25,750 bases of DNA from Phanerodontia chrysosporium (lineage: Eukaryota; Basidiomycota; Agaricomycetes; Polyporales; Phanerochaetaceae): assembly GCA_001910725.1 (NCBI GenBank), contig MJGA01000117.1:1-25750 (forward strand), given 5' to 3'. Shown here piece by piece: positions 2,258 through 25,706 of the stretch. The notes beneath the pieces are model-generated. The model searched no databases, was not told where the DNA came from, and saw only the letters and a program-made list of their open reading frames with translations. The position numbers were made by a program, and so were the translations under genes. Each line of letters begins with the position of its first letter. Position 1 is the first letter of the stretch.

Positions 2258-4694
2258 ATGCCGAAAGCTCTGTCTATGTCAACTGCCGCCCTGAAGCGAG
2301 CAATGGCAAATATCAAAAGCCAGAGCGGCAAGGAGCCGAAGAAAACAACCCGAGCACCTCGCAAGAAGGCTCAGGAGGCAGGGGATAACGACAAACCGGT
2401 TGAGAGCTCCACAAAGAAGCCTCAGCGCATGAACGACGCGGACGATGAGGTCGAAGTAATTGACGAAGATGTATCAGCCGACGAAGGCGACACCGATGGA
2501 GGCATCGTCGAAGGCGATCCTCCTCGTAAAGGGAAGGGGAAGGCTGTCGACAAGGACAGCCAAGAGGAGGAGCAATGGGTTGACGAGAATGAGGACGCAA
2601 CCACGCGCTACGTACGTGTTAAGTCTCTAATCGCGTACCTTGTCTTGCTAAATCGCATCGCTACCAGGCGCGAGAGCTCCGTAGCGTTTTGGACGAGCTT
2701 TCGACCCTGCCGCCAAGCAAGACCGCGTTCGACCCGCACGTCATCACACGAATTCGCGTGAACATCACGGACGCGTTCATGGGCTTCGCCCGTGTCAACT
2801 GGCTCGCGGACGACGCGGTCCGTCCTGAGTTTGGCCGCTGGGTCAAACGAATAGTCCATAACCAGGCGCTGACGAACCTCGTCCGTCGGTACGAGGACGA
2901 GGGCATCCGGCGGGTTGACCGCACCACGATGTTCAAGGTGCCGCTAAAGGTTGGAACTGATCTGAAGCCGGACGCGGCAGAGCGTCTGGCCAAGTGTTCC
3001 AGCTACGCGGCACTGCAGAACCTCGACATTTTCACGGCGAGCGAAGACGTCTGGCCGACGCTAGATTCTCTGCTGAAGGACAATGTCAAGTACATCGCGG
3101 TCTCCGGTGGGCAGCATCGTCTAGCAGCCCTGCGGCAGTACATGAAGATCGTCGACAATCGGGTTATACAAGGGGCGGTACGAATTCACGGGTTGCAAGA
3201 CACATTGAAACACCTGAAGAACAAGATCGACGAAGAAGAGAAGAAGGGGAATTTGAACCATGAGAACATACCAGAAGCTCAAGAGTACCACGCCACCGTC
3301 GCGGTTCTCGAGGCCGCGAAGCAGGAGACGAAGAAGTGGCAGGACATCCAGAAAGCAAGCGGTTGGTGGTTGGTTGCGATCTACGACCGCGGTAAGGCAT
3401 TACTCGGGACTTCTACACCGATATATTGAAGTACTCATTACATTGCAGACAAGATGACCCAGGACGAGTTGTACGAGATGGCGCGAAACTTCAACGAGAC
3501 GTTGCGCGGCGAGACACCTGAGGAGTTTCTCGAGATGATCGTCGGGCTGCTTGCGATCGAGCGCGACGGCCTCGTTTACGGCGAGAAGAAGGCCACGGCT
3601 GACGGGTTGACCGCGCTCGCCGAGAGCAAGCTGGAAGCAAGCTTGGGGACGATGACCGCTGCAAACGCGGACGAGGCCATCGAGGGCGCGAAGGGCGTCG
3701 ATGTCGCTGATGAGACGGCCGCGGAGGTGGCGACCTCGGCACAGTCGAGCAAATCCGCGGCGAAGACGACGAAGGGCGGCAAGGCGGCGAAGGCGAAGGG
3801 CGCAGGGAAAGCGGCGTCGACATCGAAAGGTGTCGACGTTGCGACTGCGACGGCTGCGATGGCGAAGAAGCAGAAGGAGACGCCGCGGAAGTCAGCTCCG
3901 GTGGCTGCTTTGCTTCGTGTCCCTCACTCTCTGCAGCTCCTTATGCATCTCATCGAGGCCAAAAACCCGCTCGTGGAGCATCCGATCTGGAAGGTTTCGT
4001 ACTTGGTTTCGCATTTGCTCAACGTGTACGGCGCGGTGAGTGCAGCAGGCGAAGGAGGTGATTGCTTTACTGACTATGTGTTGGACACCAGATCGCCTCG
4101 AATGTCGTCGAAACGCTCTGGGTACATTTCGACGGAATGGGGCGTATTATCAAGGATTGCCCGACAGCGGACGAACTCGACAGGAGCATGGAGTACTGGG
4201 CGCAGCAGCGCGCATCAGGTACACAAGCCACTATCGACGAGGCGAACACGAATATGACCAAGGTGTACAAGAAACTGCTGGGCAACGCGAAAGAGCGACC
4301 GTCGTACGAGATCTTGCCCGACATCATGGCTATCGCGGACGCGGCGTATTGCGAGGCGTTCAAGACCAACAAGAAAAGCCTCGAGGTCTCTACCGCCGCT
4401 ATGCTGCTAACGAACAGGCCCCTTGCGAACAGCGACGACCAGGATCTGCTGCTTGATACCATCGACAACTACGTGCACGCGCTGCGCAAGGGGCTGCGGG
4501 CGAAATGCGAAGAGGTCGAGGCTGACGACACCGCGACGGCTAACTCGAAGAAGCTGTGGCAGCAGGCTGAAGCGAAAGCAATGCTTTTCGTGCTTGCAGG
4601 CCAGCATGTCCATCCGCATTATGGACCGATGCCTCTGCCGAGCCTCACCTTCGTCAACGAGATGTTCCGTCGTCTCGAGTTCTGCAAGGATGCG
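2258..4694 (+). CDS. A1: GGQHR-motif (ParB/DGQHR-like) protein, 3'-truncated by the retroelement array
   Basis: The exons are 2258-2611, 2668-3391, 3449-4035 and 4092-4694, with introns of 56, 57 and 56 nt that keep the frame open for about 756 residues. Residues 1-118 are low-complexity: lysine-rich, then acidic. Exon 2 carries ISGGQHRLAAL-type sequence (actual VSGGQHRLAAL, GGQHR at about 265-269), then a charged probable coiled coil, then WWLVAIYDRDK (about 351-361) and a helix with ELYEMARNFNET. A GQHR box followed later by a hydrophobic strand and an ELxxxARxxN helix recalls ParB/sulfiredoxin-fold DGQHR proteins; this is my inference from motif spacing. Exon 3 ends in Ala/Lys/Thr-rich linker and a WKVSYLVSHLL helix. 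The gene stops being homologous to paralogue A2 at KDA, exactly where A2 has an intron donor. From 4696 the frame reads into retroelement DNA up to a stop at 5093, which is not native sequence. Function unknown. Confidence 0.7.
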
Positions 4695-4754
4695 GTTAGG
4701 GTTTGGGGGGCGCGAGACGCGAGCGTAGCGAGCGGCGAGCGCGGAATGCTTCAC

Positions 4755-4827
4755 AGGAAAACCGAAGGCAGCCGACACTGTTGTGTCGCGCTGAGCTTTC
4801 GTCGTGAAGACTCATCAGCGGTTTCCT
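4755..4827 (-). ncRNA. Hammerhead ribozyme (type I), pseudo-LTR 1
   Basis: On the minus strand, stem I AGGAAACCG (4827-4819) is followed by the invariant CUGAUGA (4818-4812). Stem-loop II is GUC-UUCAC-GAC (4811-4801), followed by GAAA (4800-4797). A long stem III (CAGC/GCUG and CGACAC/GUGUCG around an AACA loop, with small internal loops) closes at A15.1-U16.1 (4766). The cleavage-site nucleotide is U17 at 4765. The 3' strand of stem I is CGGUUUUCCU (4764-4755), pairing with one bulged U. All core bases are present. Cleavage is predicted between 4765 and 4764. Hammerheads are established components of Penelope-like elements. Confidence 0.85.
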
Positions 4828-5480
4828 ACTGGGATATATACCCCTTGCAACCGCCAGGCCCGAAGGGACTGGCGGGCCGACGAGAGGCGAAATGTCGCTC
4901 GTCGGCTGTAATGCGATTGGTGCGGAGAAAAGTCTCCCCGAGGTCGGGAGCAACGGATCCCCTTAAGGGACTCTTTCTCGGCAAAAGTACGAAGGTTTTG
5001 TATGTACAGATCATGCGGAAGGGGCCAACAACACCCCAACGAGCAGCGGACTACCGAAAAGTCACCTTTCGAAGTCTCGAGATCTCGATCTGATCGGATC
5101 AACGCCACAAAGTGCCCGGACGAAGTCCGGCACGCGGCTACCCCGGCGAAAGTCTCCCGAACCTAGCGGAGTCAGTTCGGAGCCGACCCGGATTCGGGCC
5201 GGTTATTAACACGCGCATCGAATCCAGAGTTAACCGCATCCCTGGGTCGAAGATCACATGATCACAAACGCTATTAGCAGCCACGAGACGGACACGTGGA
5301 ACACGTGCGCGGCCATCACGGCGATCACCGAAGCACCCACGCCACGAAGGCGGGCGCTCACTGCATCCATTGAATAATGACGCTGTACAACAAAATACTC
5401 TATAACTGCTGGCTGTACCGTTCAACGGGTACAACTCCGCTCCAGGGGGTTTAGGCCTGTGAGGGAGACGCTAATGAATA

Positions 5481-5516
5481 TTTAGGCTTAGGGCTTAGGT
5501 TAGGGGTTTTGGGTTT
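5481..5516 (+). repeat. Degenerate telomere-like tract inside pseudo-LTR 1
   Basis: About 36 nt of TTTAGG/CTTAGGG/GTTAGGGG-like units lie inside the pseudo-LTR, about 65 nt from the ORF stop. The tract also occurs in pseudo-LTRs 2 and 3; pseudo-LTR 4 is truncated before it. It is therefore a fixed part of the element rather than a fresh telomere addition. Confidence 0.6.
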
Positions 5517-5582
5517 GAACCAAAGTGTATGCCGCTAAGTAAATATCCTCTGACCATTACGGCCAGCAGTTATCGAATCGCA

Positions 5583-8500
5583 TTACTGCCATTCGTCCAC
5601 GTGCATGTGTTGAGCAGAGTCACTGTTCAATGCTGCTTGAATGATGTCCTTTTTCCAGCTATTGACTATATCCCCGAGATTGCGAATTTTCTTTTGGGAG
5701 ACAAGCCAGGCGCGGTCGTGGAATCCAACGGACCGTATATCCAGATCCTCCTGGACGATTCCCGAGTCCTTCTTCGCCGTACAAATACGATAGGGCTTAC
5801 TATTCGTTGTGCCGTCATCTCCGCTAGCAACCGACTCCGCATCTGAGGCGGGTCCGAGGTCACCGACCTGGTCCTCCACTCCCAAAGGTACATGGAGGGC
5901 AGGATTTACCTGCGGATCCGCATCTAACCGAGGCTCGGCCATTGCGTATCGTATTCGTAGGGATTTAGGTACTCGTAACGCGTTGTCAGTCCACACAACA
6001 CTGAGGTCGTGTGCCGAGAAGCTGGGTTCGCTGAGAGCTACAAGCTCGTCAACGTCCATGACATCCCTGGGATCGTAGGTCACACGGGGTTTCGCAACAT
6101 TGGCTACGCCCACTCGGCCGGCCACCCCTTCAGGGCGACTCTCACCGGGATATAGACTGCTCTGCTCGCCTTGGAACTGACCGAGAGTCGTCTGCCGAAA
6201 GATCTTCAGCTCGGACCCATCAGTGCTCTCCGCGGCGTGCCACGTACGGTCCTGAGATTGATTAGCTCCGTCGAGCTTACTCAGGCTGGACAACCAGGAT
6301 TCAACGACGACTTCAGACAAGCCGTGGACGTTGAACGCAGACCAAGCGGGATTGAAGTGGGATTTAAGCACAAAGACTTCATCCCGTACGATTGGCTCAC
6401 CAAGCCTTCGTTCCCATCTTTGTGAAAAGTGAGCTTTAACCCAACTCCTCACCGCATCGTCTGGGTATCCACGTGCCAAGTACAGATTACTCAGGTCGGA
6501 TATGGCGTCTCTGTAGTGTTCCAGTTTACTACAAAGCGTGGCCAGACGAGACATCTCGCCGATAAAGGTGCCTTTCTTAACATCTTTTGGGTGGTGAGAT
6601 GCCCATGGTATGCGTTCACGGTGGTTCAGTGGTTTAGAATATGGTTTCCAATGTAACCTCTTCTCGACTGGATCGAGATAGAGGAAAAGATCCAGGAACG
6701 GAGTGTGGTACTCCGACACTGACCACTCGATTTCGACGCCGTCGTAGCGAATCTCGTTCGCGTACGACATAGCCTCCTCTGCTGACGAAGCGTAGACTAT
6801 GCCGAGTACGTCGTCCAGATACCGACCGAAGAAGGCAAACTTCGATTTCATGTCGGGTCTGGCGAGTATAGGGTTCTCGTAATGAGAACCGTAGAGGTTA
6901 GCCAGGTCCGGACTACAGGCAATACCCATAGCCAGGCCCCGGATCTGCTCTGCATACTCGTCGCCGAATTGTATAACGAGCCGCTTGTTAGCAGTCATGA
7001 AGGACATCAGGAAGAGCTGACGTTCTTCTGGGGAGAGCTTCTCCGCCTCGGGGCTGCTCCGCCACATTTGTGTGACTACACGGATACAGTTCTCTAGGGG
7101 GATATTCGGATAGAAGGCGACGATATCGCCTGAAACAATCCACGCTTTCCTGTGCTTATCAAGCTGCAACGACTCAAGCTGCCTCACGAGATGTTTAGAA
7201 CCGTGAATTACGTGTGACTGACGCGACACGAGTGGCTTGAGCATTTTAGAAACATACGTAGCGGAGGGGGCTTGCGAGACAGAATGACACGGGACGATAG
7301 GCCGCATTTTGACCGGTCGCTTGTGTACCTTAGGTACGCCATAGAACTGGCCGAGCGTATAGCCCGCTGTCTTCGCATCCTTCCCATGGATCTTTGATAC
7401 AAGGAATTCCGCCAACTGACGCTTCCCAAGCCGCCTAGCAAGTCTGGCAGCGCGGAAGATCCGTTCGTGTTTCTCTTCCATAATCTCATCCGCCTCCAAC
7501 AGTGATCCGAGCTTACGGTAGTTGGAGGGGTCGTTCCAGAGAGTACGGGTCTGATCAGTCGCCCAGTCGGCCTGCAAGATGCATACGCCGAGATTCTTAT
7601 CAGAAGGACTAACGATATATTTGTTAGCACTCAAGTAGTCCTTGAGCTCGTCCAGCCAAACCAAGTTCAGGCTACGAGAAGTGGCTTTTACGCTTGGCAT
7701 GACGTTCGAGATATAATCGTCCACGAACTTGTCGCCTTTGCGAAGGCCGAGCTCAATATACGCAGGTGTGGTGCGAACACCGTCATCAAAGCGCTTGCGC
7801 GCCTTGGGCACCACGTAGTCTGGGTCGAAGTCAGGATCGTCGTCGTTTGGGGAGTCAATGAGTTTCTCAGTGAAGAAAACTCGCCACCTGAAGCGGTCTT
7901 TAAAGTCTTCCCATGCCTCACGCACTACGTTCGATGACGGGACGGAGTACATTAAATAGCGGAGGCTAGACGATACATGCATTTGTAGATGTTCCGGTAC
8001 AGTTACATTAGGTCCAAGGAAAACTCTCGAACGGAATCTCGCTGCACGCTTCACTTCAAGCGGCACTCGCTCGAGGAGCAACTGAATGGCACGGGGTGCC
8101 GGAAGCATCAGAATCACGTCGGGGTAGGAATGAGGAGCATCGTACCTCCAAGGGGCCGCGCGAACGTATGCGACTATTTCTTCTGGGTCTTCTTGCCCTT
8201 CCCTTGTTCCTTCCCCTTGCCCTTCTTGAGGCGATCCAGCCTCGCCGCTGCTGCAGCGGAGTCGCCGGGACGGGCCTTGATGGCCGTCGTCTTGCCTTTG
8301 CCGGAGTCGCTTGCCGAGCTGGACACCTTGCGCTTCGTGCCTTGCGCGGTGGTCGACAAGCGAGAAGGGCCGGCTTGAGGGGCTCTGTCCTGAGACGAAA
8401 GGATGAGTATTCTCGACGCGAATTCGCGAAGAAGATGAGAGACTCACCTTGCCCTTGCCGTTCGTGAGCGCCTTCATGCCCGAGACGAGACCCTCGACTT

Positions 8501-9383
8501 GCTTCTCGAGCCTCTTGACAGCGGAGTCGACTGCGGCGTCATCCGTAGCCATTTCGACGTCTGCCTGATCCTTCAAGTCGCGTTTGGCCTTATTACGTTG
8601 CTGTTGAGTCAGCGCACGGTTCACCACGAGCATGATGACCGTCGAGGCCAACCGGGGAATGCTCCTCCGGATGTTCTCGTGCTGAGCAACCATAACAGGG
8701 TCCGTTACGAACTTGAGGGGATGGAGTTCCTCTGCAGACGGGACAGTCGCCGGCACCTGCCCTTCGACAGGAGGCCGAACGAATCCCTCGAGGACCTGGT
8801 AACGTTGCTCGAGTTCGTCTTTCCAGTGCGTGTCCGCAGCGGTCAGAACTCGGCGTGTCACCTCCATCGCTTGAAGGCGCGACTCATACCATGCATGCTC
8901 AGCAGCCTTGGTCTCGATGAAACCATCAAGGAGCTTTGCAGCGCAGGCTTTCACGATATCCGGGGCCTTCCCCGGAAAGTCGGGTTTCTGTGACTCCAGA
9001 AACCCTTTCGTGAATTGAATCGCAGGCGTGCTGCCCAGCCCCTTCAGAGGTGAGGGGAGGGTGCCTGCAGCCTTGTGCTGGCGCAGCCGTTCGAGTTGAG
9101 CCGCTATCTCCACACGCTTCGTAGCGTCGTGGTGGATGTCCGTGAGGACTGGGCTCAACGCTACTTGGTAAAGCTTCGGCAACGTCGCAATGACCTCGTC
9201 AAGCGAGGTACAATGCGCGAGGGCCGCTGCGCGACGCTCGTCGAACGTGCCGAAGCTTATCTGCTCGCCGAGCACCACTGAAGCCTGTGAAGGCGACAGC
9301 GCACGGGTGAACGAGGGGAAATGGCCTGTGGATGAAGACGCAGTCGCGCGGACCGCACGGCGAGTAGTGTCTTGGGCGGGCAT
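5583..9383 (-). CDS. ORF1-reverse transcriptase of Penelope-like element 1 (1266 aa, unspliced frame)
   Basis: RT of the Penelope class. Residues 1-312 are a probable coiled-coil ORF1 region. Residues ~313-400 are encoded by a retained 58-nt intron plus a region also read in another frame. The RT follows: SPSDKNLGV (D595), PKVHK (~684-688), the catalytic block GDIVAFYPNIP (D753), LAMGIACSPDLANL (~818-830) and YLDD (855-858, Asp857/858). PKVHK...RPIV, AMG..SP..ANL and the N-terminal DKNLGV block are Penelope hallmarks. No GIY-YIG catalytic pattern is visible in the C-terminal ~300 residues, which fits the telomere-associated EN-lacking group. The start ATG at 9383 lies 24 nt after the upstream pseudo-LTR. 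The frame is intact, with roughly a dozen residue differences from copy 2. Proposed role: target-primed synthesis at chromosome ends. Confidence 0.92.
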   Translation of the reverse strand: MPAQDTTRRAVRATASSSTGHFPSFTRALSPSQASVVLGEQISFGTFDERRAAALAHCTSLDEVIATLPKLYQVALSPVLTDIHHDATKRVEIAAQLERLRQHKAAGTLPSPLKGLGSTPAIQFTKGFLESQKPDFPGKAPDIVKACAAKLLDGFIETKAAEHAWYESRLQAMEVTRRVLTAADTHWKDELEQRYQVLEGFVRPPVEGQVPATVPSAEELHPLKFVTDPVMVAQHENIRRSIPRLASTVIMLVVNRALTQQQRNKAKRDLKDQADVEMATDDAAVDSAVKRLEKQVEGLVSGMKALTNGKGKVSLSSSSRIRVENTHPFVSGQSPSSRPFSLVDHRARHEAQGVQLGKRLRQRQDDGHQGPSRRLRCSSGEAGSPQEGQGEGTREGQEDPEEIVAYVRAAPWRYDAPHSYPDVILMLPAPRAIQLLLERVPLEVKRAARFRSRVFLGPNVTVPEHLQMHVSSSLRYLMYSVPSSNVVREAWEDFKDRFRWRVFFTEKLIDSPNDDDPDFDPDYVVPKARKRFDDGVRTTPAYIELGLRKGDKFVDDYISNVMPSVKATSRSLNLVWLDELKDYLSANKYIVSPSDKNLGVCILQADWATDQTRTLWNDPSNYRKLGSLLEADEIMEEKHERIFRAARLARRLGKRQLAEFLVSKIHGKDAKTAGYTLGQFYGVPKVHKRPVKMRPIVPCHSVSQAPSATYVSKMLKPLVSRQSHVIHGSKHLVRQLESLQLDKHRKAWIVSGDIVAFYPNIPLENCIRVVTQMWRSSPEAEKLSPEERQLFLMSFMTANKRLVIQFGDEYAEQIRGLAMGIACSPDLANLYGSHYENPILARPDMKSKFAFFGRYLDDVLGIVYASSAEEAMSYANEIRYDGVEIEWSVSEYHTPFLDLFLYLDPVEKRLHWKPYSKPLNHRERIPWASHHPKDVKKGTFIGEMSRLATLCSKLEHYRDAISDLSNLYLARGYPDDAVRSWVKAHFSQRWERRLGEPIVRDEVFVLKSHFNPAWSAFNVHGLSEVVVESWLSSLSKLDGANQSQDRTWHAAESTDGSELKIFRQTTLGQFQGEQSSLYPGESRPEGVAGRVGVANVAKPRVTYDPRDVMDVDELVALSEPSFSAHDLSVVWTDNALRVPKSLRIRYAMAEPRLDADPQVNPALHVPLGVEDQVGDLGPASDAESVASGDDGTTNSKPYRICTAKKDSGIVQEDLDIRSVGFHDRAWLVSQKKIRNLGDIVNSWKKDIIQAALNSDSAQHMHVDEWQ
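8174..9383 (-). CDS. Alternative spliced ORF1 product of element 1 (383 aa, basic tail)
   Basis: Exons 9383-8448 and 8389-8174 (minus strand) are separated by a 58-nt intron beginning GTGAGT and ending CTCAG. Because 58 is not a multiple of three, splicing shifts the frame. The shared 312-residue N-terminal region is then followed by 71 new residues that are Ser/Ala/Lys-rich and end in a run of GKGK and KKTQKK before TAG. The spliced frame looks like genuine protein, a basic nucleic-acid-binding tail, whereas the unspliced frame through the same DNA is Gln/Arg/Gly-rich. Reading through without splicing leads to the RT. The same arrangement is preserved in element 2. The spliced form is inferred. 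Confidence 0.65.
8390..8447 (-). other. Predicted 58-nt intron within element 1 ORF
   Basis: Minus strand: donor AAG/GTGAGT at 8447, acceptor TCTCAG/GAC at 8390. Its length and sites match the host introns in this window. It contains no in-frame stop, so retention leaves the 1266-codon frame open. Confidence 0.7.
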
Positions 9384-9407
9384 GGTGAAGAGTGCTTACT
9401 CGATTGA

Positions 9408-10357
9408 TTAGGGTTTGGGGGGCGCGAGACGCGAGCGTAGCGAGCGGCGAGCGCGGAATGCTTCACAGGAAAACCGAAGGCAGCCGACACTGTTGTGTCG
9501 CGCTGAGCTTTCGTCGTGAAGACTCATCAGCGGTTTCCTACTGGGATATATACCCCTTGCAACCGCCAGGCCCGAAGGGACTGGCGGGCCGACGAGAGGC
9601 GAAATGTCGCTCGTCGGCTGTAATGCGATTGGTGCGGAGAAAAGTCTCCCCGAGGTCGGGAGCAACGGATCCCCTTAAGGGACTCTTTCTCGGCAAAAGT
9701 ACGAAGGTTTTGTATGTACAGATCATGCGGAAGGGGCCAACAACACCCCAACGAGCAGCGGACTACCGAAAAGTCACCTTTCGAAGTCTCGAGATCTCGA
9801 TCTGATCGGATCAACGCCACAAAGTGCCCGGACGAAGTCCGGCACGCGGCTACCCCGGCGAAAGTCTCCCGAACCTAGCGGAGTCAGTTCGGAGCCGACC
9901 CGGATTCGGGCCGGTTATTAACACGCGCATCGAATCCAGAGTTAACCGCATCCCTGGGTCGAAGATCACATGATCACAAACGCTATTAGCAGCCACGAGA
10001 CGGACACGTGGAACACGTGCGCGGCCATCACGGCGATCACCGAAGCACCCACGCCACGAAGGCGGGCGCTCACTGCATCCATTGAATAATGACGCTGTAC
10101 AACAAAATACTCTATAACTGCTGGCTGTACCGTTCAACGGGTACAACTCCGCTCCAGGGGGTTTAGGCCTGTGAGGGAGACGCTAATGAATATTTAGGCT
10201 TAGGGCTTAGGTTAGGGGTTTTGGGTTTGAACCAAAGTGTATGCCGCTAAGTAAATATCCTCTGACCATTACGGCCAGCAGTTATCGAATCGCATTACTG
10301 CCATTCGTCCACGTGCATGTGTTGAGCAGAGTCACTGTTCAATGCTGCTTGAATGAT
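9408..10357 (-). repeat. Pseudo-LTR 2 (5' end of element 1)
   Basis: A full 950-bp copy, matching pseudo-LTR 1 at every base I compared, including positions where copies 3 and 4 differ. It ends at GAATGAT, inside what would be the ORF C-terminus, and is followed directly by telomeric repeats. It behaves as the 5' leader of element 1 and carries the promoter-proximal ribozyme. Confidence 0.9.
9467..9539 (-). ncRNA. Hammerhead ribozyme, pseudo-LTR 2
   Basis: Same core and stems as the copy at 4755-4827 (offset 4712). Predicted cleavage lies between 9477 and 9476. Together with the 4765/4764 site it would release a 4712-nt unit RNA. Confidence 0.85.
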
Positions 10358-10380
10358 TTAGGGTTTAGGGTTTAGGGTTT
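10357..10380 (+). repeat. Short TTTAGGG tract at the junction between the two elements
   Basis: Three TTTAGGG units and a partial fourth lie between the 5' end of element 1 and the 3' end of element 2. The G-rich strand runs left to right. This is the expected scar of telomere addition to element 1 followed by priming of element 2 from that end. The last nine bases overlap the start of pseudo-LTR 3. Confidence 0.9.
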
Positions 10381-11321
10381 GGGGGGCGCGAGACGCGAGC
10401 GTAGCGAGCGGCGAGCGCGGAATGCTTCACAGGAAAACCGAAGGCAGCCGACACTGTTGTGTCGCGCTGAGCTTTCGTCGTGAAGACTCATCAGCGGTTT
10501 CCTACTGGGATATATACCCCTTGCAACCGCCAGGCCCGAAGGGACTGGCGGGCCGACGAGAGGCGAAATGTCGCTCGTCGGCTGTAATGCGATTGGTGCG
10601 GAGAAAAGTCTCCCCGAGGTCGGGAGCAACGAATCCCCTTAAGGGACTCTTTCTCGGCAAAAGTACGAAGGTTTTGTATGTACAGATCATGCGGAAGGGG
10701 CCAACAACACCCCAACGAGCAGCGGACTACCGAAAAGTCACCTTTCGAAGTCTCGAGATCTCGATCTGATCGGATCAACGCCACAAAGTGCCCGGACGAA
10801 GTCCGGCACGCAGCCACCCCGGCGAAAGTCTCCCGAACCTAGCGGAGTCAGTTCGGAGCCGACCCGGATTCGGGCCGGTTATTAACATGCGCATCGAATC
10901 CAGAGTTAACCGCAGCCCTGGGTCGAAGATCACATGATCACAAACGCTATTAGCAGCCACGAGACGGACACGTGGGACACGTGCGCGGCCATCATGGCAA
11001 TCACCGAAGCGCCCACGCCACGAAGGCGGGCGCTCACTGCATCCATTAAATAATGACGCTGTACAACAAAATACTCTATAACTGCTGGCTGTACCGTTCA
11101 ACGGGTACAACTCCGCTCCAGGGGGTTTAGGCCTGTGAGGGAGACGCTAATGAATATTTAGGCTTAGGGCTTAGGCTAGGGGTTTTGGGTTTGAACCAAA
11201 GTGTATGCCGCTAAGTAAATATCCTCTGACCATTACGGCCAGCAGTTATCGAATCGCATTACTGCCATTCGTCCACGTGCATGTGTTGAACAGAGTCACT
11301 GTTCAATGCTGCTTGAATGAT
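10372..11321 (-). repeat. Pseudo-LTR 3 (3' end of element 2)
   Basis: Full-length copy. It differs from copies 1 and 2 at scattered sites (for example CGAATCCCC instead of CGGATCCCC, CAGCCACC instead of CGGCTACC, and ATCATGGCAATC instead of ATCACGGCGATC) but shares these variants with copy 4. Confidence 0.9.
10431..10503 (-). ncRNA. Hammerhead ribozyme, pseudo-LTR 3
   Basis: Core and stems identical to the copy at 4755-4827 (offset 5676), with CUGAUGA, GAAA, stem II GUC/GAC and the UU cleavage dinucleotide. Predicted cleavage lies between 10441 and 10440. Confidence 0.85.
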
Positions 11322-14300
11322 GTCCTTTTTCCAGCTATTGACTATGTCCCCGAGATTGCGAATTTTCTTTCGGGAGACAAGCCAGGCGCGGTCGTGGAAT
11401 CCAACGGACCGTATATCCAGATCCTCCTGGACGATTCCCGAGTCCTTCTTCGCCGTACAAATACGATAGGGCTTACTATTCGTTGTGCCGTCATCTCCGC
11501 TAGCAACCGACTCCGCATCTGAGGCGGGTCCGAGGTCACCGACCTGGTCCTCCACTCCCAAAGGTACATGGAGGGCAGGATTTACCTGCGGATCCGCATC
11601 TAACCGAGGCTCGGCCATTGCGTATCGTATTCGTAGGGATTTAGGTACTCGTAACGCGTTGTCAGTCCACACAACACTGAGGTCGTGTGCCGAGAAGCTG
11701 GGTTCGCTGAGAGCAACAAGCTCGTCAACGTCCATGACATCCCTGGGATCGTAGGTCACACGGGGTTTCGCAACATTGGCTACGCCCACTCGGCCGGCCA
11801 CCCCTTCAGGGCGACTCTCACCGGGATATAGACTGCTCTGCTCGCCTTGGAACTGACCGAGAGTCGTCTGCCGAAAGATCTTCAGCTCGGACCCATCAGT
11901 GCTCTCCGCGGCGTGCCACGTACGGTCCTGAGATTGATTAGCTCCGTCGAGCTTACTCAGGCTGGACAACCAGGATTCAACGACGACTTCAGACAAGCCG
12001 TGGACGTTGAACGCAGACCAAGCGGGATTGAAGTGGGATTTAAGCACAAAGACTTCATCCCGTACGATTGGTTCACCAAGCCTTCGTTCCCATCTTTGTG
12101 AAAAGTGAGCTTTAACCCAACTCCTCACCGCATCGTCTGGATACCCACGTGCCAAGTACAGATTACTCAGGTCGGATATGGCGTCTCTGTAGTGTTCCAG
12201 TTTACTACAAAGCGTGGCCAGACGAGACATCTCGCCAATAAAGGTGCCTTTCTTAACATCTTTCGGGTGGTGAGATGCCCATGGTATGCGTTCACGGTGG
12301 TTCAGTGGTTTAGAATAAGGTTTCCAATGTAACCTCTTCTCGACTGGATCGAGATAGAGGAAAAGATCCAAGAACGGAGTGTGGTACTCCGACACTGACC
12401 ACTCGATTTCGACGCCGTCGTAGCGAATCTCGTTCGCGTACGACATAGCCTCCTCTGCTGACGAAGCGTAGACTATGCCGAGTACGTCGTCCAGATACCG
12501 ACCGAAGAAGGCAAACTTCGATTTCATGTCGGGTCTGGCGAGTATAGGGTTCTCGTAGTGAGAACCGTAGAGGTTAGCCAAGTCTGGACTACAGGCAATG
12601 CCCATAGCCAGGCCCCGGATCTGCTCCGCATACTCGTCGCCGAATTGTATAACGAGCCGCTTGTTAGCAGTCATGAAGGACATCAGGAAAAGCTGACGTT
12701 CTTCTGGGGAAAGCTTCTCCGCCTCGGGGCTGTTCCGCCACATTTGTGTGACTACTCGGATACAGTTCTCTAGGGGGATATTCGGATAGAAGGCGACTAT
12801 ATCGCCTGAAACAATCCACGCTTTCCTGTGCTTATCAAGCTGCAACGACTCAAGCTGCCTCACGAGATGTTTAGAACCGTGAATTACGTGCGGCTGACGC
12901 GACACGAGTGGCTTGAGCATTTTAGAAACATATGTAGCGGAGGGGGCTTGCGAGACAGAATGACACGGGACGATAGGCCGCATTTTGACCGGTCGCTTGT
13001 GTACCTTAGGTACGCCATAGAATTGGCCGAGCGTATAGCCCGCTGTCTTCGCATCCTTCCCATGGATCTTTGATACAAGGAATTCCGCCAACTGACGCTT
13101 CCCAAGCCGCCTAGCAAGTCTGGCAGCGCGGAAGATCCGTTCGTGTTTCTCTTCCATAATCTCATCCGCCTCCAACAGTGATCCGAGCTTACGGTAGTTG
13201 GAGGGGTCGTTCCAGAGAGTACGGGTCTGATCAGTCGCCCAGTCGGCCTGCAAGATGCATACGCCGAGATTCTTATCAGAAGGACTAACGATATATTTGT
13301 TAGCACTCAAGTAGTCCTTGAGCTCGTCCAGCCAAACCAAGTTCAGGCTACGAGAAGTGGCTTTTACGCTTGGCATGACGTTCGAGATATATTCGTCCAC
13401 GAACTTGTCGCCTTTGCGAAGGCCGAGCTCAATGTACGCAGGTGTGGTGCGAACACCGTCATCAAAGCGCTTGCGCGCCTTGGGCACCACGAAGTCTGGG
13501 TCGAAGTCAGTGTCGTCGTCGTTTGGGGAGTCAATGAGTTTCTCAGTGAAGAAAACTCGCCACCTGAAGCGGTCTTTAAAGTCTTCCCATGCCTCACGCA
13601 CTACGTTCGATGACGGGACGGAGTACATTAAATAACGGAGGCTAGACGATACATGCATTTGAAGATGTTCCGGTACAGTTACATGAGGTCCAAGAAAAAC
13701 TCTCGAACGGAATCTCGCTGCACGCTTCACTTCAAGCGGCACTCGCTCGAGGAGCAACTGAATGGCACGGGGTGCCGGAAGCATCAGAATCACGTCGGGG
13801 TAGGAGTGAGGAGCATCGTACCTCCAAGGGGCCGCGCGAACGTATGCGACTATTTCTTCTGGGTCTTCTTGCCCTTCCCTTGTTCCTTCCCCTTGCCCTT
13901 CTTGAGGCGATCCAGCCTCGCCGCTGCTGCAGCGGAGTCGCCGGGACGGGCCTTGATGGCCGACGTCTTGCCTTTGCCGGAGTCGCTTGCCGAGCTGGAC
14001 ACCTTGCGCTTCGTGCCTTGCGCGGTGGTCGACAAGCGAGAAGGGCCGGCTTGAGGGGCTCTGTCCTGAGACGAAAGGATGAGTATCTTCGACGCGAGTT
14101 CGCGAAGAAGATGAGAAACTCACCTTGCCCTTGCCGTTCGTGAGCGCCTTCATGCCCGAGACGAGACCCTCGACTTGCTTCTCGAGCCTCTTGACAGCGG
14201 AGTCGACTGCGGTGTCATCCGTAGCCATTTCGACGTCCGCCTGATCCTTCAAGTCGCGCTTGGCCTTATTACGTTGCTGTTGAGTCAGCGCACGGTTCAC

Positions 14301-15059
14301 CACGAGCATGATGACCGTCGAGGCCAACCGGGGAATGCTCCTCCGGATGTTCTCGTGCTGAGCAACCATAACAGGGTCCGTTACGAACTTGAGGGGATGG
14401 AGTTCCTCTGCAGACGGGACGGTCGCCGGCACCTGCCCTTCGACAGGAGGCCGAACGAATCCCTCGAGGACCTGGTAACGTTGCTCGAGCTCGTCTTTCC
14501 AGTGCGTGTCCGCAGCGGTCAGAACTCGGCGTGTCACCTCCATCGCTTGAAGGCGCGACTCATACCATGCGTGCTCAGCAGCCTTGGTCTCGATGAAACC
14601 GTCAAGGAGCTTTGCAGCGCAGGCCTTCACGATATCCGGGGCTTTCCCCGGAAAATCGGGCTTCTGTGACTCCAGAAACCCTTTCGTGAATTGAATCGCA
14701 GGCGTGCTGCCCAGCCCCTTCAGAGGTGAGGGGAGGGTGCCTGCAGCCTTGTGCTGGCGCAGCCGTTCGAGTTGAGCCGCTATCTCCACACGCTTCGTAG
14801 CGTCGTGGTGGATGTCCGTGAGGACTGGGCTCAACGCTACTTGGTAAAGCTTTGGCAACGTCGCAATGACCTCGTCAAGCGAGGTGCAATGCGCGAGGGC
14901 CGCTGCGCGACGCTCGTCAAACGTGCCGAAGCTGATCTGCTCGCCGAGCACCACTGAAGCCTGTGAAGGCGACAGCGCACGGGTGAACGAGGGGAAATGG
15001 CCTGTGGATGAAGACGCAGTCGCGCGGACCGCACGGCGAGTAGTGTCTTGGGCGGGCAT
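11259..15059 (-). CDS. ORF1-reverse transcriptase of Penelope-like element 2 (1266 aa)
   Basis: Same length and domain order as the ORF at 5583-9383: coiled-coil ORF1 region, intron-derived segment, SPSDKNLGV, PKVHK, the catalytic GDIVAFYPNIP, LAMGIACSPDLANL and YLDD. No GIY-YIG nuclease is seen. About a dozen amino-acid changes separate the copies, several of them clustered in the intron and dual-frame region and in the segment before DKNLGV. All catalytic residues are retained. Two intact frames in tandem argue that the family is, or very recently was, active. The start ATG at 15059 again lies 24 nt inside the upstream pseudo-LTR boundary. Confidence 0.92.
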   Translation of the reverse strand: MPAQDTTRRAVRATASSSTGHFPSFTRALSPSQASVVLGEQISFGTFDERRAAALAHCTSLDEVIATLPKLYQVALSPVLTDIHHDATKRVEIAAQLERLRQHKAAGTLPSPLKGLGSTPAIQFTKGFLESQKPDFPGKAPDIVKACAAKLLDGFIETKAAEHAWYESRLQAMEVTRRVLTAADTHWKDELEQRYQVLEGFVRPPVEGQVPATVPSAEELHPLKFVTDPVMVAQHENIRRSIPRLASTVIMLVVNRALTQQQRNKAKRDLKDQADVEMATDDTAVDSAVKRLEKQVEGLVSGMKALTNGKGKVSFSSSSRTRVEDTHPFVSGQSPSSRPFSLVDHRARHEAQGVQLGKRLRQRQDVGHQGPSRRLRCSSGEAGSPQEGQGEGTREGQEDPEEIVAYVRAAPWRYDAPHSYPDVILMLPAPRAIQLLLERVPLEVKRAARFRSRVFLGPHVTVPEHLQMHVSSSLRYLMYSVPSSNVVREAWEDFKDRFRWRVFFTEKLIDSPNDDDTDFDPDFVVPKARKRFDDGVRTTPAYIELGLRKGDKFVDEYISNVMPSVKATSRSLNLVWLDELKDYLSANKYIVSPSDKNLGVCILQADWATDQTRTLWNDPSNYRKLGSLLEADEIMEEKHERIFRAARLARRLGKRQLAEFLVSKIHGKDAKTAGYTLGQFYGVPKVHKRPVKMRPIVPCHSVSQAPSATYVSKMLKPLVSRQPHVIHGSKHLVRQLESLQLDKHRKAWIVSGDIVAFYPNIPLENCIRVVTQMWRNSPEAEKLSPEERQLFLMSFMTANKRLVIQFGDEYAEQIRGLAMGIACSPDLANLYGSHYENPILARPDMKSKFAFFGRYLDDVLGIVYASSAEEAMSYANEIRYDGVEIEWSVSEYHTPFLDLFLYLDPVEKRLHWKPYSKPLNHRERIPWASHHPKDVKKGTFIGEMSRLATLCSKLEHYRDAISDLSNLYLARGYPDDAVRSWVKAHFSQRWERRLGEPIVRDEVFVLKSHFNPAWSAFNVHGLSEVVVESWLSSLSKLDGANQSQDRTWHAAESTDGSELKIFRQTTLGQFQGEQSSLYPGESRPEGVAGRVGVANVAKPRVTYDPRDVMDVDELVALSEPSFSAHDLSVVWTDNALRVPKSLRIRYAMAEPRLDADPQVNPALHVPLGVEDQVGDLGPASDAESVASGDDGTTNSKPYRICTAKKDSGIVQEDLDIRSVGFHDRAWLVSRKKIRNLGDIVNSWKKDIIQAALNSDSVQHMHVDEWQ
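13850..15059 (-). CDS. Alternative spliced ORF1 product of element 2 (383 aa)
   Basis: Exons 15059-14124 and 14065-13850, joined across a 58-nt intron (14066-14123), encode the shared N-terminal region plus a 71-residue basic tail ending KKTQKK. Compared with element 1 the tail differs only by Thr to Ser (KGKTT to KGKTS). The same base change in the unspliced frame gives Asp to Val, a more radical change. That suggests the spliced frame is the better-conserved one here, on very few substitutions. Confidence 0.65.
14066..14123 (-). other. Predicted 58-nt intron within element 2 ORF
   Basis: Donor GTGAGT and acceptor CTCAG are conserved with element 1, while several bases inside differ, giving three amino-acid changes in the unspliced frame. 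Conserved splice sites with a drifting interior are typical of a real intron. Confidence 0.7.
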
Positions 15060-15083
15060 GGTGAAGAGTGCTTACTCGATTGA

Positions 15084-15739
15084 TTAGGGTTTGGGGGGCG
15101 CGAGACGCGAGCGTAGCGAGCGGCGAGCGCGGAATGCTTCACAGGAAAACCGAAGGCAGCCGACACTGTTGTGTCGCGCTGAGCTTTCGTCGTGAAGACT
15201 CATCAGCGGTTTCCTACTGGGATATATACCCCTTGCAACCGCCAGGCCCGAAGGGACTGGCGGGCCGACGAGAGGCGAAATGTCGCTCGTCGGCTGTAAT
15301 GCGATTGGTGCGGAGAAAAGTCTCCCCGAGGTCGGGAGCAACGAATCCCCTTAAGGGACTCTTTCTCGGCAAAAGTACGAAGGTTTTGTATGTACAGATC
15401 ATGCGGAAGGGGCCAACAACACCCCAACGAGCAGCGGACTACCGAAAAGTCACCTTTCGAAGTCTCGAGATCTCGATCTGATCGGATCAACGCCACAAAG
15501 TGCCCGGACGAAGTCCGGCACGCAGCCACCCCGGCGAAAGTCTCCCGAACCTAGCGGAGTCAGTTCGGAGCCGACCCGGATTCGGGCCGGTTATTAACAT
15601 GCGCATCGAATCCAGAGTTAACCGCAGCCCTGGGTCGAAGATCACATGATCACAAACGCTATTAGCAGCCACGAGACGGACACGTGGGACACGTGCGCGG
15701 CCATCATGGCAATCACCGAAGCGCCCACGCCACGAAGGC
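15084..15739 (-). repeat. Pseudo-LTR 4 (truncated 5' end of element 2)
   Basis: A 656-bp copy sharing the pseudo-LTR 3 variants. It is cut at CGAAGGC and capped by TTTAGGG repeats. Confidence 0.9.
15143..15215 (-). ncRNA. Hammerhead ribozyme, pseudo-LTR 4
   Basis: Core and stems identical to the copy at 4755-4827 (offset 10388). Predicted cleavage lies between 15153 and 15152. The ribozyme survives although this pseudo-LTR is truncated. Confidence 0.85.
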
Positions 15740-15880
15740 TTAGGGTTTAGGGTTTTAGGGTTTAGGGTTTAGGGTTTAGGGTTTAGGGTTTAGGGTTTAG
15801 GGTTTAGGGTTTAGGTTTAGGGTTTAGGGTTTAGGTTTAGGGTTTAGGTTTAGGTTTAGGGTTTAGGGTTAGGGTTTAGG
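15740..15880 (+). repeat. Telomeric TTTAGGG tract (interstitial)
   Basis: About 141 bp of TTTAGGG with occasional TTTAGG, TTAGGG and TTTTAGGG variants. The G-rich strand reads 5' to 3' rightward, as at a right-hand chromosome terminus. It joins directly to truncated pseudo-LTR 4 on the left and to non-telomeric DNA on the right through a shared AGG. Confidence 0.97.
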
Positions 15881-16025
15881 CTTTGGCTTTTATTTTTGCG
15901 AAATAAGAGGGGTATCCCGACACATTTCCAACCTATGTGAAATTATGGAACGTGGAAATCCATGAATGGGATCGGTTATGTATGCTGCAAGCATGAGATC
16001 AAACTTATGAAACGTGACTGAATCT

Positions 16026-16259
16026 CCGATGGCTGCTCGAGCAGCGATCGGAAACGGTCCAGTCATGGCAGGTAACACTGCGTAGAACCAGTGTTACCGT
16101 CCGATCACTGCTCGAACAGCGATCGGGTGGCGACAGCTGATGAGATTGGTAGGACCACCCGATTGCTGTTCGAGCAGCGATCGGGAAGCACCGACAATCG
16201 AAGGCAGCAAAGGAGCGAGTATACCCATGAGCCCCGATCGCTGCTCGAGGAGCGATCGG
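16026..16259. repeat. TCGA-palindrome cassette B, copy 1 (4 palindromes)
   Basis: 26-bp palindromes lie at 16026-16051, 16101-16126, 16159-16184 and 16234-16259. Each is of the type CCGATCGCTGCTC followed by its reverse complement. Individual copies carry one to three mismatches, usually in one arm. Confidence 0.9.
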
Positions 16260-16494
16260 AGTGAGGGCTTCATTGCACAGAAGGCACTTCGATCACACCC
16301 ATAGCAGCAAAGTGACAACAAATTGTCATACGCAAGCGACAACAGTCTGCATATCATGACATGCTGGTTTTCAAGTCACCAGTCCCTCAATCATGTAACC
16401 ACAAACAGAGATCGTGAATAAATGTCAGAAGTGTTTATGCCTCGAATAAATCGCCCTCGGTTCAGGGTAGATGTTGGGTTCAGAATGGGTTAGG

Positions 16495-16802
16495 GGTTCA
16501 GAGGGTTCAAAGAGGAGTTGACGAAAAGGCATTTGTGCCACGACCAATTTTACAGATGTTTGTGTCGGTCACATAGTAGAGATCATACTATCTGGGATGT
16601 CAGAAATTGCATACGTCTGCCACAAACATATTTAAAAACAAAAACAAATGCAAAGGCGGGAATGTCCATTCCACCGCCATCAGCTGGTCATCTATCTGCA
16701 AACAGGTGCATACAACATGTGATCAAATTCTTATCAGTAGCGATCTCGCGCAAGGGCAATGCTGAGCGACTTGAAAGACCACCACCACCATCCACCCTCG
16801 TA
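16495..16802 (+). promoter_or_regulatory. Conserved 5' flank of B2
   Basis: Nearly identical to the inverted flank of B3 (18826-19135) and strongly similar to that of B1 (191-485). It includes the shared GTGCCACGA, CATACGTCTGCCACAAACAT and AACAGGTGCATACAACATGT blocks. A TATA-like TATTTAAA lies near 16629. The upstream in-frame ATG at 16759 is closed by TAA just before the B2 start. Confidence 0.45.
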
Positions 16803-17960: not shown

Positions 17961-18160
17961 AGTGTCAGTAGTATGCAAATGTGACTGCTGGAAGACAACA
18001 AGTCGCCTTTCATCGTCGATGTTAGAATACAAGCAGTTTATACGAATGTGACCTTATCTCAAAGCCCACCATAAATCACACAAATTATTTCTCTTCCTCG
18101 GGATAGACTGGATACATTTGAAACCGATTTGTACAGCAGATAACGCACATAGCAATGAGT

Positions 18161-18825
18161 TATTCATAGAAGCAGATGCACCTTTCGATCTGAGAGAGCT
18201 CCTGGTGGATTGAGTCCTCAAACGGAGCGCGTAGTCACCGGACCACTCATACTTGAACTCGCCGTTGAACATCAAAAGCATCCGCAGACCATGACTCCAC
18301 ACGAGGTGACGCATGGCAATTTCCCACGCAGTCTCTCCGTATTTCTGGATACACTCCGGCTGGGTTCAACAGTGAGCTCGCTGTCGCACTATGCATCATG
18401 ATCGTCCATCAACTCACCGCGAAATCGCGGAGGGCGGTCCATGCCGGGTCGCCGGAAGTCATTCCGTTGATATCGAGGTTCATCCTCAGGATCTGGCCAG
18501 CAATCGACCGCGCGCTGGTGAGTATGCGCACGAACCTGGCCCTCTTGACGTCCCGGGCATCATCGTTTTGCCGAGCGTACTCTGCGAAATCCCCTCGAAG
18601 TTGTCCCGATCTCGTTCGTGGTACTTCTCCCCAGACAAACCATCGAAGTCCCAATATCGCTCAACCGCGTATTCTACCTCGCGGAGCATCCTCCCACGTC
18701 GATCCTGCCAAACTCTTCATCAGTACCCTCTTCAGTTCAGCGAAAACCTTACTTACATGAGATGAGGCACGCTCGCCATCGTCGACCTCTTCGGTCACGG
18801 CACGAGAAGGAGCGTTTGTGGACAT
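18161..18825 (-). pseudogene. B3: B-family gene with two frameshifts, nearly identical to B1
   Basis: On the minus strand the exons are 18825-18757, 18704-18418 and 18359-18161, with introns at B1 positions. Exon 1 is MSTNAPSRAVTEEVDDGERASSH, nearly identical to B1. Exon 2 lacks one base near 18592 (GAGGGGATTT where B1 has GAGGGAGATTT), so DFAEYARQ falls in another frame. Exon 3 lacks one C near 18225, breaking the frame after GDYAL. The coding sequence is closer to B1 than to its inverted partner B2, whereas the upstream flank is closer to B2. It is probably non-functional unless these are sequence errors. Confidence 0.7.
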
Positions 18826-19375
18826 TATGATGAGGGGGTGGTGGTGGTGGTTGTCTTTCAAGTCGCTCAGCACTGCCCTTGCGCGAGATCGCTACTGATA
18901 AGAATTTGATCACATGTTGTATGCACCTGTTTGCAAATAGATTGACCAGCTGATGGCGGTGGAATGGACATTCCCGCCTTTGCATTTGTTTTTGTTTTTA
19001 AATATGTTTGTGGCAGACGTATGCAATTTCTGACATCCCAGATAGTATGATCTCTACTATGTGACCGACACAAACATCTGTAAAATTGGTCGTGGCACAA
19101 ATGCCTTTTCGTCAACTCCTCTTTGAACCCTCTGAACCCCTAACCCATTCTGAACCCAACATCTACCCTGAACCGAGGGCGATTTATTCGAGGCATAAAC
19201 ACTTCTGACATTTATTCACGATCTCTGTTTGTGGTTACATGATTGAGGGACTGGTGACTTGAAAACCAGCATGTCATGATATGCAGACTGTTGTCGCTTG
19301 CGTATGACAATTTGTTGTCACTTTGCCTGCTATGGGGTGTGATCGAAGTGCCTTCTGTGCAATGAAGCCCTCACT

Positions 19376-19609
19376 CCGATCGCTCCTCGAGCAGCGATCG
19401 GGGCTCATGGGTATACTCGCTCCCTTTGCTGCCTTGATTGTCGGTGCTTCCCGATCGCTGCTCGAACAGCAATCGGGTGGTCCTACCAATCTCGTCAGCT
19501 GTCGCCACCCGATCGCTGTTCGAGCAGTGATCGGGCGGTAACACTGGTTCTACACAGTGTTAGCTGCCATGACTGGACCGTTTCCGATCGCTGCTCGAGC
19601 AGCCATCGG
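19376..19609. repeat. TCGA-palindrome cassette B, copy 3 (inverted)
   Basis: Palindromes lie at 19376-19401, 19451-19476, 19509-19534 and 19584-19609, in inverted order relative to copy 1. Spacers match the left arm closely. Which arm carries the mismatch differs from copy 1 for some units, showing independent mutation after duplication. Confidence 0.9.
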
Positions 19610-19749
19610 AGACTCAGTCACGTTTCATACGGTCGATCTCATCTTTGTAGCATAAATAATTTGTATTTTCCGCTTACGTAATTCGACATAGACTGGAAAT
19701 GTGTCGAGGATACCCCCTTTTACTTCGCAAAAAATAAAAGTCAAAGCCT

Positions 19750-21144: not shown

Positions 21145-21231
21145 GTGCCATGTAATGTAACAATAGTTGTCTGTTTGTAGTAGATATTGTTGGCCAACTT
21201 ACGAGAGTTTACTGTTGAACGGTGCGAGACT

Positions 21232-21315
21232 CCGATGGCTGCTCGAGTAGCGATCGGGGATGGCGGACATTGAGATTGGTGCTAAGTCCCCGATCGCTGT
21301 TCGAGCAGCGATCGG
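21232..21315. repeat. Two TCGA palindromes (family B) between the SAM-like gene and B4
   Basis: Copies at 21232-21257 and 21290-21315. The first has GGCTGCTCGAGTAGCG at its centre (arms mismatched); the second is nearly perfect. Both lie in the 3' flank of one gene and the 5' flank of the next. Confidence 0.85.
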
Positions 21316-21472
21316 AGAGGCACTACCGTGTTCAAGACAGTGCGCAGGAACGATAAACACGTGCTTCGGCTATCAAGCGTGGGAACAATTAGTAGATTAC
21401 AAATCGTCACATCGCCCGTTCGCTGTCGAACGCAGCTTCAAGAGTACCACCACCTCATCGAAGTTAGTTCAT

Positions 21473-22426: not shown

Positions 22427-22745
22427 CCGATCGCTGGACGAGTAGCGATCGGAGTGGCACAACGAGAATGGATGCAATCATCCGATCGCTACTCGACCAG
22501 CGATCGGAAAAGAGGCACCGTATTGGCGCAGGATTGAATTGAGAGGTGTCACCGACCGCTGGTCGAGGAGCGATCGGGGAATGAGGCAGCATGCCCAAAT
22601 TCCTGCGCAATCCGATCGCTGCTCGACCAGCGGTCGGAAGAGCGAGGTGAATTTGATGGGACAGCGTAGTGACAGCCAAACATGCTGCGAAATTGCATTC
22701 TCGCCATTCCTGAGTGCTCCCGATCGCTCCTCGAGCAGCCATCGG
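22427..22745. repeat. TCGA-palindrome cluster B (5 palindromes) upstream of A2
   Basis: Copies at 22427-22452, 22482-22507, 22552-22577, 22612-22637 and 22720-22745. Several are hybrids with one arm of the CGATCG type and the other CGACCG/CGGTCG, and with varied centres (GGACGAGT, CTCGACC, GGTCGAGG). These are intermediate between family B and family C. Confidence 0.85.
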
Positions 22746-25357: not shown

Positions 25358-25407
25358 GTGAGTACTGCTCGACACTTCGTATCCACGTTCACCACACATT
25401 GTCCCTT

Positions 25408-25706
25408 CCCCGACGCTCCTCGAGCAGCGGTCGGGGCGAGGCACAGGTGCTCGTTCCCCGACCGTCTTCGAGCAGCGGTCGGGGCGAGGCAGGTGCTCGT
25501 TCCCCGACCGCTCCTCGAGAGCGGTCGGGGCGAGGTGCAGGTGCTCGTTTCCCGACCGCTCCTCGAGCAGCGGTCGGGGCGAGGCGTGCGTACTCGTTCC
25601 CCGACGCTCCTCGAGCAGCGGTCGGGGCGAGGCATGCGTACTCGTTCCCCGACCGCTCCTCGAGCACCTACACTCGCCCCGACCGCTCCTCGAGGAGCGG
25701 TCGGGG
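25408..25706. repeat. TCGA-palindrome array C (7 units, ~48-bp period) in presumed A2 intron
   Basis: Palindromes start near 25408, 25456, 25502, 25550, 25599, 25647 and 25677. They are of the type CCCCGACCGCTCC, TCGA centre, and matching right arm. Spacers of about 18 bp (CGAGGC..GCGTACTCGTT-like) are also repeated. The last unit is a perfect palindrome. Several others carry a CAG-type right half, and one lacks a base. The array begins about 50 nt after the exon 4 donor. Long minus-strand Arg/Ser/Pro frames across it are artefacts of the repeat. Confidence 0.88.

Follow-up and report, generated by a model that had tools for sequence, protein, structure and literature searches.

An optional intron as a putative switch between ORF1 and an ORF1-RT fusion in apparently telomere-associated, Penelope-like elements of Phanerodontia chrysosporium

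We propose, with a probability of about 0.7, that a 58-nt optional intron acts as a reading-frame switch in a Penelope-like element of Phanerodontia chrysosporium: spliced RNA would encode ORF1, and unspliced RNA would both encode an ORF1-reverse transcriptase (RT) fusion and serve as the template that is copied. Once the intron, whose length is 3n+1 nt, is excised, ribosomes would read on in another frame through a Lys-rich tail to a stop codon, yielding a mostly helical ORF1 protein of 383 aa, while retention would keep the frame open into a fusion of 1266 aa. The basic tail of ORF1 may bind nucleic acid. As the intron is kept in each of the eight genomic copies, the copied RNA is likely to be the unspliced one, and because this RNA would also be the template, the RT may be made solely from template-competent RNA. 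We infer from the sequence that both RNAs are made and translated, as we do their ratio, the role of ORF1 and the coupling to the template.

Layout of the elements and of the intron

The window is an entire contig of 25,750 nt. Two elements, A and B, lie head-to-tail on its minus strand (Table 1), with direct terminal repeats of about 964 nt; their architecture is identical and they differ at 55 of 3813 nt. The intron sits within the open 1266-codon frame, its donor in phase 0 after AAG. In both elements GTGAGT falls at a codon boundary, CTCAT lies 18 nt before the intron end and CAG closes it; we take CTCAT to be an instance of the CTNAY branch-site consensus. Removal of the 58 nt joins the 312 residues of exon 1 to 71 further residues, rich in Lys, and a stop. 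The 216 nt downstream of the intron are thus open in two frames, the RT frame being -1 relative to the spliced frame.

Table 1. Features of the two elements in the window
Feature	Position	Strand	Basis or remark
Element A, Penelope-like element	4696..10371	-	Repeat families, shift comparison, RT homology
Element A, direct terminal repeats, 964 bp	9408-10371 and 4696-5659		Far end inferred from the 964-nt spacing of copies
Element A, fused ORF1-RT frame (intron retained), 1266 aa	5583..9383	-	Open in 7/7 full copies
Element A, exon 1, 312 ORF1 codons	8448..9383	-	Predicted mostly helical
Element A, putative spliceosomal-type intron, 58 nt, 3n+1	8390..8447	-	GTGAGT ... CTCAT ... CAG
Element A, CTCAT, candidate branch site	8403..8407	-	Identical in 8/8 copies
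Element A, second AG, 5 nt downstream of the acceptor (63-nt in-frame intron)	8385..8386	-	In 7/8 copies
Element A, stretch open in two frames: RT-frame linker and, after splicing, the Lys-rich ORF1 tail (71 aa, stop 8174-8176)	8174..8389	-	
Element A, RT core, residues 687-872	6768..7325	-	Pfam RVT_1, E 2.4e-6, 27.8 bits, slightly below the curated cut-off of 29.6 bits
Element B, its 5' repeat cut short at a telomere-repeat array	10372..15735 (upper end approximate)	-	Repeat comparison
Element B, fused ORF1-RT frame, 1266 aa	11259..15059	-	
Element B, intron, 58 nt	14066..14123	-	
Element B, dual-frame stretch	13850..14065	-	
TTTAGGG telomere-type array, adjoins the 5' end of element B	15740..15875	+	

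A preliminary description of this DNA had reported a 58-nt intron with consensus sites inside an uninterrupted 1266-codon frame, with splicing leading to a Lys-rich tail and the stop of a 383-aa ORF1, and both points, coordinates included, agree with the sequence. It had also claimed that both elements keep the splice sites, the retained frame and the alternative stop. This holds well beyond the window. A genome search found the 274-nt stretch of intron and overlap in eight copies in the 39-Mb assembly. In seven of these the 1266-aa frame is full-length; C51, the eighth, is matched in two frames, apparently because a frameshift interrupts it further on. The GTGAGT donor, CTCAT, the CAG acceptor and the 383-aa spliced frame are kept in 8/8 copies and the 1266-aa fused frame in 7/7 full-length copies, and stops accumulating in one frame of intact copies, which the preliminary description would have taken as a refutation, are not seen. 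Several 3' fragments of the element are present in the assembly, and five 5'-truncated copies carry in-frame stops: L016 (C77), L017 (C89), L020 (C44), L021 (C82) and L022 (C85).

The splice signals are near consensus and look strong. GTRAGT occurs once in the 3.8-kb ORF, at the intron donor, and the T content of the intron is 34%, whereas the overlap has 9% and the final 200 nt of exon 1 have 16%. Among 12 gaps in host actin-family genes, 10 contained a GT-AG candidate within the 43 to 112 nt sought and 2 did not; nine of these 10 had a candidate of 46 to 63 nt, with a CTNAY motif in four of the nine, and the length of 58 nt therefore fits host introns. A looser pattern of donor, branch site and acceptor matches the ORF 3 times, against a mean of 1.33 and a maximum of 5 in codon shuffles. 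The two alternative frames of the ORF contain eight open runs of at least 72 codons, probably including that of the overlap itself, and an open second frame of 72 codons is therefore not unusual by itself.

Variation among copies and the spliced tail

The intron varies among the copies like noncoding DNA, whereas exon 1 and the RT region vary like coding DNA. Counted by first, second and third codon position of the fused frame, variable columns number 3, 2 and 23 in exon 1, 9, 9 and 66 in the RT region, 1, 2 and 1 in the overlap and 3, 2 and 1 in the intron. Change in the intron amounts to 10.3 per 100 sites, without codon bias, which is near the 7.6 seen at third positions elsewhere. First and second positions of the intron changed at 5 of 39 sites versus 0.98% elsewhere (P = 5e-5); across 3412 other windows of 58 nt in the ORF, such changes never exceed 2. 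In total change the intron is not unique, since 84 of the 3412 windows have at least its total of 6. Five of these six changes alter an amino acid of the retained intron peptide, which is thus unconstrained in the copies; constraint is stronger in the overlap than in the intron (Fisher P = 0.007). No intronless copy was detected in the 39-Mb assembly by a search for the 30-nt exon-exon junction with up to 3 mismatches, which covered the junction left by removal of the 58 nt only.

A relative that ends with ORF1 points the same way. P0024, a 379-aa gene-model protein of Phanerochaete sordida, is 46% identical to the spliced product across 95% of its length, and was the sole ORF1-only protein matched in searches with the spliced product and with an ORF1 profile (in each, about 8000 candidates, those with the most shared words, were scored). 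Its tail aligns to the spliced-frame tail with a score of 89 and to the retained-frame peptide with a score of 36, the maximum of 2000 shuffles being 67. Judged by this alignment, what is conserved after the intron junction in P0024 matches the spliced tail and not the retained peptide.

The overlap itself may be under selection in both frames. The preliminary description held that about 210 nt code in two frames; 216 nt are indeed open in both, and dual constraint is weakly suggested by the copies. Each frame has a single third-position change where 5.45 would be expected (P = 0.024 for either frame), a low value in both frames that is nonetheless unexceptional, as 114 of 1032 other 216-nt windows have no more than 1. 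Codon usage per codon ranks the spliced frame (+0.098) above the fused frame (-0.044) and the third frame (-0.223). Measured against 33 windows of the RT region, which score at least 0.04 in frame and at most -0.142 out of frame, the fused frame of the overlap falls between in-frame and off-frame values.

The overlap also invites a different explanation, in which the intron is always removed and ribosomes slip by -1 into the RT frame within the 216 nt, as in many gag-pol pairs. Both frames are open there and the RT frame lies at -1, as this would need. However, the one copy scanned has no X_XXY_YYZ heptamer in the overlap when this is read in the spliced frame (one such site occurs in exon 1, far upstream), and an open intron would be needless, yet it is open in all seven full copies, and a single frame crosses the junction in most homologues described below. 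We regard such frameshifting as very unlikely.

Homologous proteins across the ORF1-RT junction

With the fused product as query, 5.8 billion proteins were searched and the 7993 candidates with the most shared words were scored, which returned at least 23 relatives. Two remote proteins, P0022 and P0023, were left out of the junction count; P0023 has a weak GIY-YIG match (E 0.003, below the cut-off), and P0022 is GIY-YIG-like by eye only. One frame runs through the ORF1-RT junction in 18 of the remaining 21 homologues: 17 were assigned by a match to the ORF1 profile, which nine of them helped to build, and P0016 starts just before the junction. P0004 and P0006 have no single frame through it, and P0011, a eukaryotic gene model, was assigned to neither group. 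With the base composition of this intron, the chance of its staying open is 0.53, for which 18 of 21 gives P = 0.0018, in a sample where fused proteins are more readily found as a single ORF.

Fifteen of the 18 junction-crossing homologues have V[S/R/C], the residues encoded by GTNNGN in phase 0, at the donor position (a place chosen by eye); the others are P0016 (V-P), P0018 (V-I) and P0021 (none). V[SR] occurs in 13 of 13 linkers, a set that includes the window, whereas 2000 shuffles average 6.1 and never reach 13. For V[SRC] the set comprises 17 linkers, among them the window and P0011; 15 have the pair, and 3000 shuffles average 5.7 without reaching that count. P0019 and P0021, with no RT anchor, were dropped from the 17-linker control, and the homologue linkers contain further V[SR] pairs besides the donor place. 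From the donor-like residues to the next conserved motif, the peptides vary in sequence and length, as a translated intron with constrained ends would look like. At the other end, 7 of 17 linkers have [L/S/T]-G before KR (shuffles average 0.14); this pattern, picked after looking, fits a YA|G acceptor with a 3n+1 intron. The NSS/NST..GKRK motif of P0015 to P0020 may be plain protein conservation, because the RT regions of these proteins are 51-70% alike. All of this evidence comes from proteins, the splice phase being deduced from the peptides. Profile scans for the corresponding DNA gave 6 pattern matches in viral contigs and 65 in GTDB genomes, none of which was confirmed, and plasmids yielded none; single-protein searches of the present genome with P0015 and P0009 for other families led only to loci of the present element family.

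One objection is that splicing does not occur at all, the splice-like signals having arisen by chance and the 1266-aa protein being the sole product. The loose intron pattern does occur twice more in the ORF, and the fused frame is intact in every full copy. Chance signals would leave unexplained the intron-like variation, the conserved spliced tail, the donor-like residues of distant homologues and a length and base composition typical of the host; we consider this account extremely improbable, and the reality of the intron is well supported by the first three of these sequence comparisons.

A further possibility is that two alternative acceptors, and not retention, set the outcome: use of the CAG at 58 nt would give ORF1, while use of the AG 5 nt downstream would remove 63 nt in frame and give ORF1-RT without the intron peptide. 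The second AG is present in most copies, and an unconstrained intron peptide is expected if it is never translated. In the NCBI gene model P0011 (Bondarzewia), ORF1 seems, on visual inspection, to be fused to RT with the V[SRC] peptide left out, but this may be a prediction artefact. Moreover, the intact copy C55 lacks the second AG and still keeps the frame, and alternative acceptors would make the open fused frame needless, contrary to the single frame through the junction in 18 of 21 homologues. We regard this arrangement as a serious but unlikely competitor, and favor retention of the 58-nt intron.

If the homologues are read in the same way, the fungal Penelope-like elements would share an ancient intron-retention switch, with an open 3n+1 intron at the ORF1-RT boundary of elements whose RTs are 23-70% alike, and with RT made solely from unspliced template RNA. 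We put forward this wider proposal tentatively, at slightly less than even odds.

Element identity and related systems

The element appears to be a telomere-associated member of the Penelope-like elements, with no endonuclease recognized. A model of the RT (pLDDT 83.9, 24 sequences) has the telomerase structure 3du5 (TERT) as its best PDB match; telomerase entries fill 13 of the first 14 rows, with the G2L4 RT at rank 2, and TMq values against telomerase structures are just 0.36-0.45. Pfam gives only RVT_1 in the whole fused protein at E ≤0.1, with no match to integrase or protease families, and membership of the Ty1/copia long terminal repeat (LTR) retrotransposons was rejected on these grounds, the RT model being nearest to telomerase. 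The C-terminal 226 residues have no Pfam match at E ≤1, a search in which a divergent GIY-YIG domain could be missed, as perhaps in P0022. The model of ORF1 residues 1-311 is mostly helical (mean pLDDT 82.6) and had no significant match in a PDB search (best E 0.11), and a structural role for ORF1 is therefore a guess. Rfam at E ≤5 detected no hammerhead ribozyme, where a divergent motif could be missed, and a hammerhead was not treated as obligatory.

The setting of the copies is telomeric. Two 5' sides adjoin telomere-repeat arrays, those of element B and of copy C63, where 21 CCCTAAA-spaced units (7-nt spacing) run inward from the contig end. At the 3' end, 7/7 full copies have a CCCTAA unit at +4681 to +4683, counted from the start codon. 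The ORF starts 964 nt from the contig end in C63, 345 nt in C88 and 3.2 kb in C114; copies C55 and C82 sit about 24 and 37 kb inside their contigs. TTTAGGG is a plant-type telomere repeat of 7 nt, unusual for a fungus.

Other features of the contig were recorded alongside. Long inverted repeats occur at 318-1278, 15976-16690 and 18035-19659, the four longest being 325-402 nt with 94-100% complementarity. They link the 18-19.7 kb stretch to the contig's left end as well as to the 16-kb stretch, a pattern that suggests a rearranged subtelomere. A 52-nt tandem repeat array (1201-2072 and 24-196) has minus-strand open frames that overlap. Short GC-rich palindromic repeats with GCTCGAnnAGCnATCGG-like arms occur at 25406-25682, 16104-16180, 19455-19531, 21230-21317 and 22553-22636, and account for weak Rfam matches; seven matches to microRNA or sRNA models were rejected as below gathering scores, the four displayed being palindromic. 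Two ORFs, 2623-3429 (+) and 23240-24427 (+), share by eye the pattern LKPDA.ERL.KC ... GGQHR.AAL; no convincing Pfam match was found for them, and we take them to resemble ParB/sulfiredoxin-like proteins.

Coprina is fungal, as is the present element. In the available descriptions, telomere-associated Penelope-like elements show 5' truncation by telomere repeats, head-to-tail arrays and 3' telomere repeats (PMC6431247), and the telomere-truncated 5' ends, head-to-tail array and 3' telomere repeats found here fit this description. The telomerase-akin RT and the lack of a recognized endonuclease are further likenesses (PMC6431247, PMC3846280). The available text of these sources mentions no frame-shifting intron at their ORF1-RT boundary, and the present element also differs in that no hammerhead ribozyme was detected.

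The preliminary description held that the switch would be a functional analogue of ribosomal frameshifting in retroviruses, and knew of no account of it for this group. The principle is known. In BARE1, a Ty1/copia element of barley, a 104-nt optional intron lies near the end of the structural ORF; its splicing causes a frameshift and an early stop so that only Gag is made, the unspliced RNA keeps a single Gag-Pol frame, and the intron is more U-rich than its flanks (PMC3735527). The layout here is alike in sequence, with a short, putatively optional intron whose removal would lead to an early stop after the structural domain and whose retention leaves one frame; the spliced frame is present in 8 copies and the fused frame in 7 full copies. 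The element may therefore operate as BARE1 does without belonging to its group. BARE1, however, is a plant LTR retrotransposon in which splicing was shown on RNA, whereas ours is a fungal Penelope-like element known from sequence, with a shorter intron and a basic tail of 71 aa added by splicing. Drosophila copia and Arabidopsis EVD also make Gag from spliced and Gag-Pol from unspliced RNA (PMC3735527, PMC8892269); in copia, nearly the whole of pol (2950 nt) is spliced out (PMC3735527), and EVD splicing is coupled to premature polyadenylation (PMC8892269). These two share the principle of spliced Gag with other layouts, and neither is Penelope-like. For Penelope-like elements, no intron that selects between ORF1 and its RT fusion was found described in the literature searched, where the coverage did not extend to key Penelope-element papers and an earlier description is possible; that part of the earlier claim stands within this scope. 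The variant seen here seems to be conserved.

Introns that persist through retrotransposition have been discussed for Penelope elements (PMC3846280), and the intron of every copy here agrees with this. In those elements, as far as the available text describes, introns are carried along, whereas the present intron would decide which protein is made. The same discussion is in keeping with a more modest account, in which the intron is real and retention is unregulated leakage, with RT made from RNA that escapes splicing and no tuned ratio. Given the strong-looking splice sites, retention may be just incomplete splicing, and regulation is not evident from the sequence. Against this, the fused frame is open in divergent homologues above chance, and a constant leak would still act as ratio control. 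We hold unregulated leakage to be distinctly unlikely, and return to retention as a switch.

The means by which Penelope-like elements adjust their protein amounts, and the reason their introns are kept, appear unsettled in the available parts of the literature covered. An RT that depends on retention would join these two questions, and a switch shared by the family would, if it is real, explain the keeping of introns in Penelope-like elements. If our reading is correct, a splice-controlled ratio of structural protein to polymerase, as known from Ty1/copia elements, would have arisen independently in the class of retroelements closest to telomerase.
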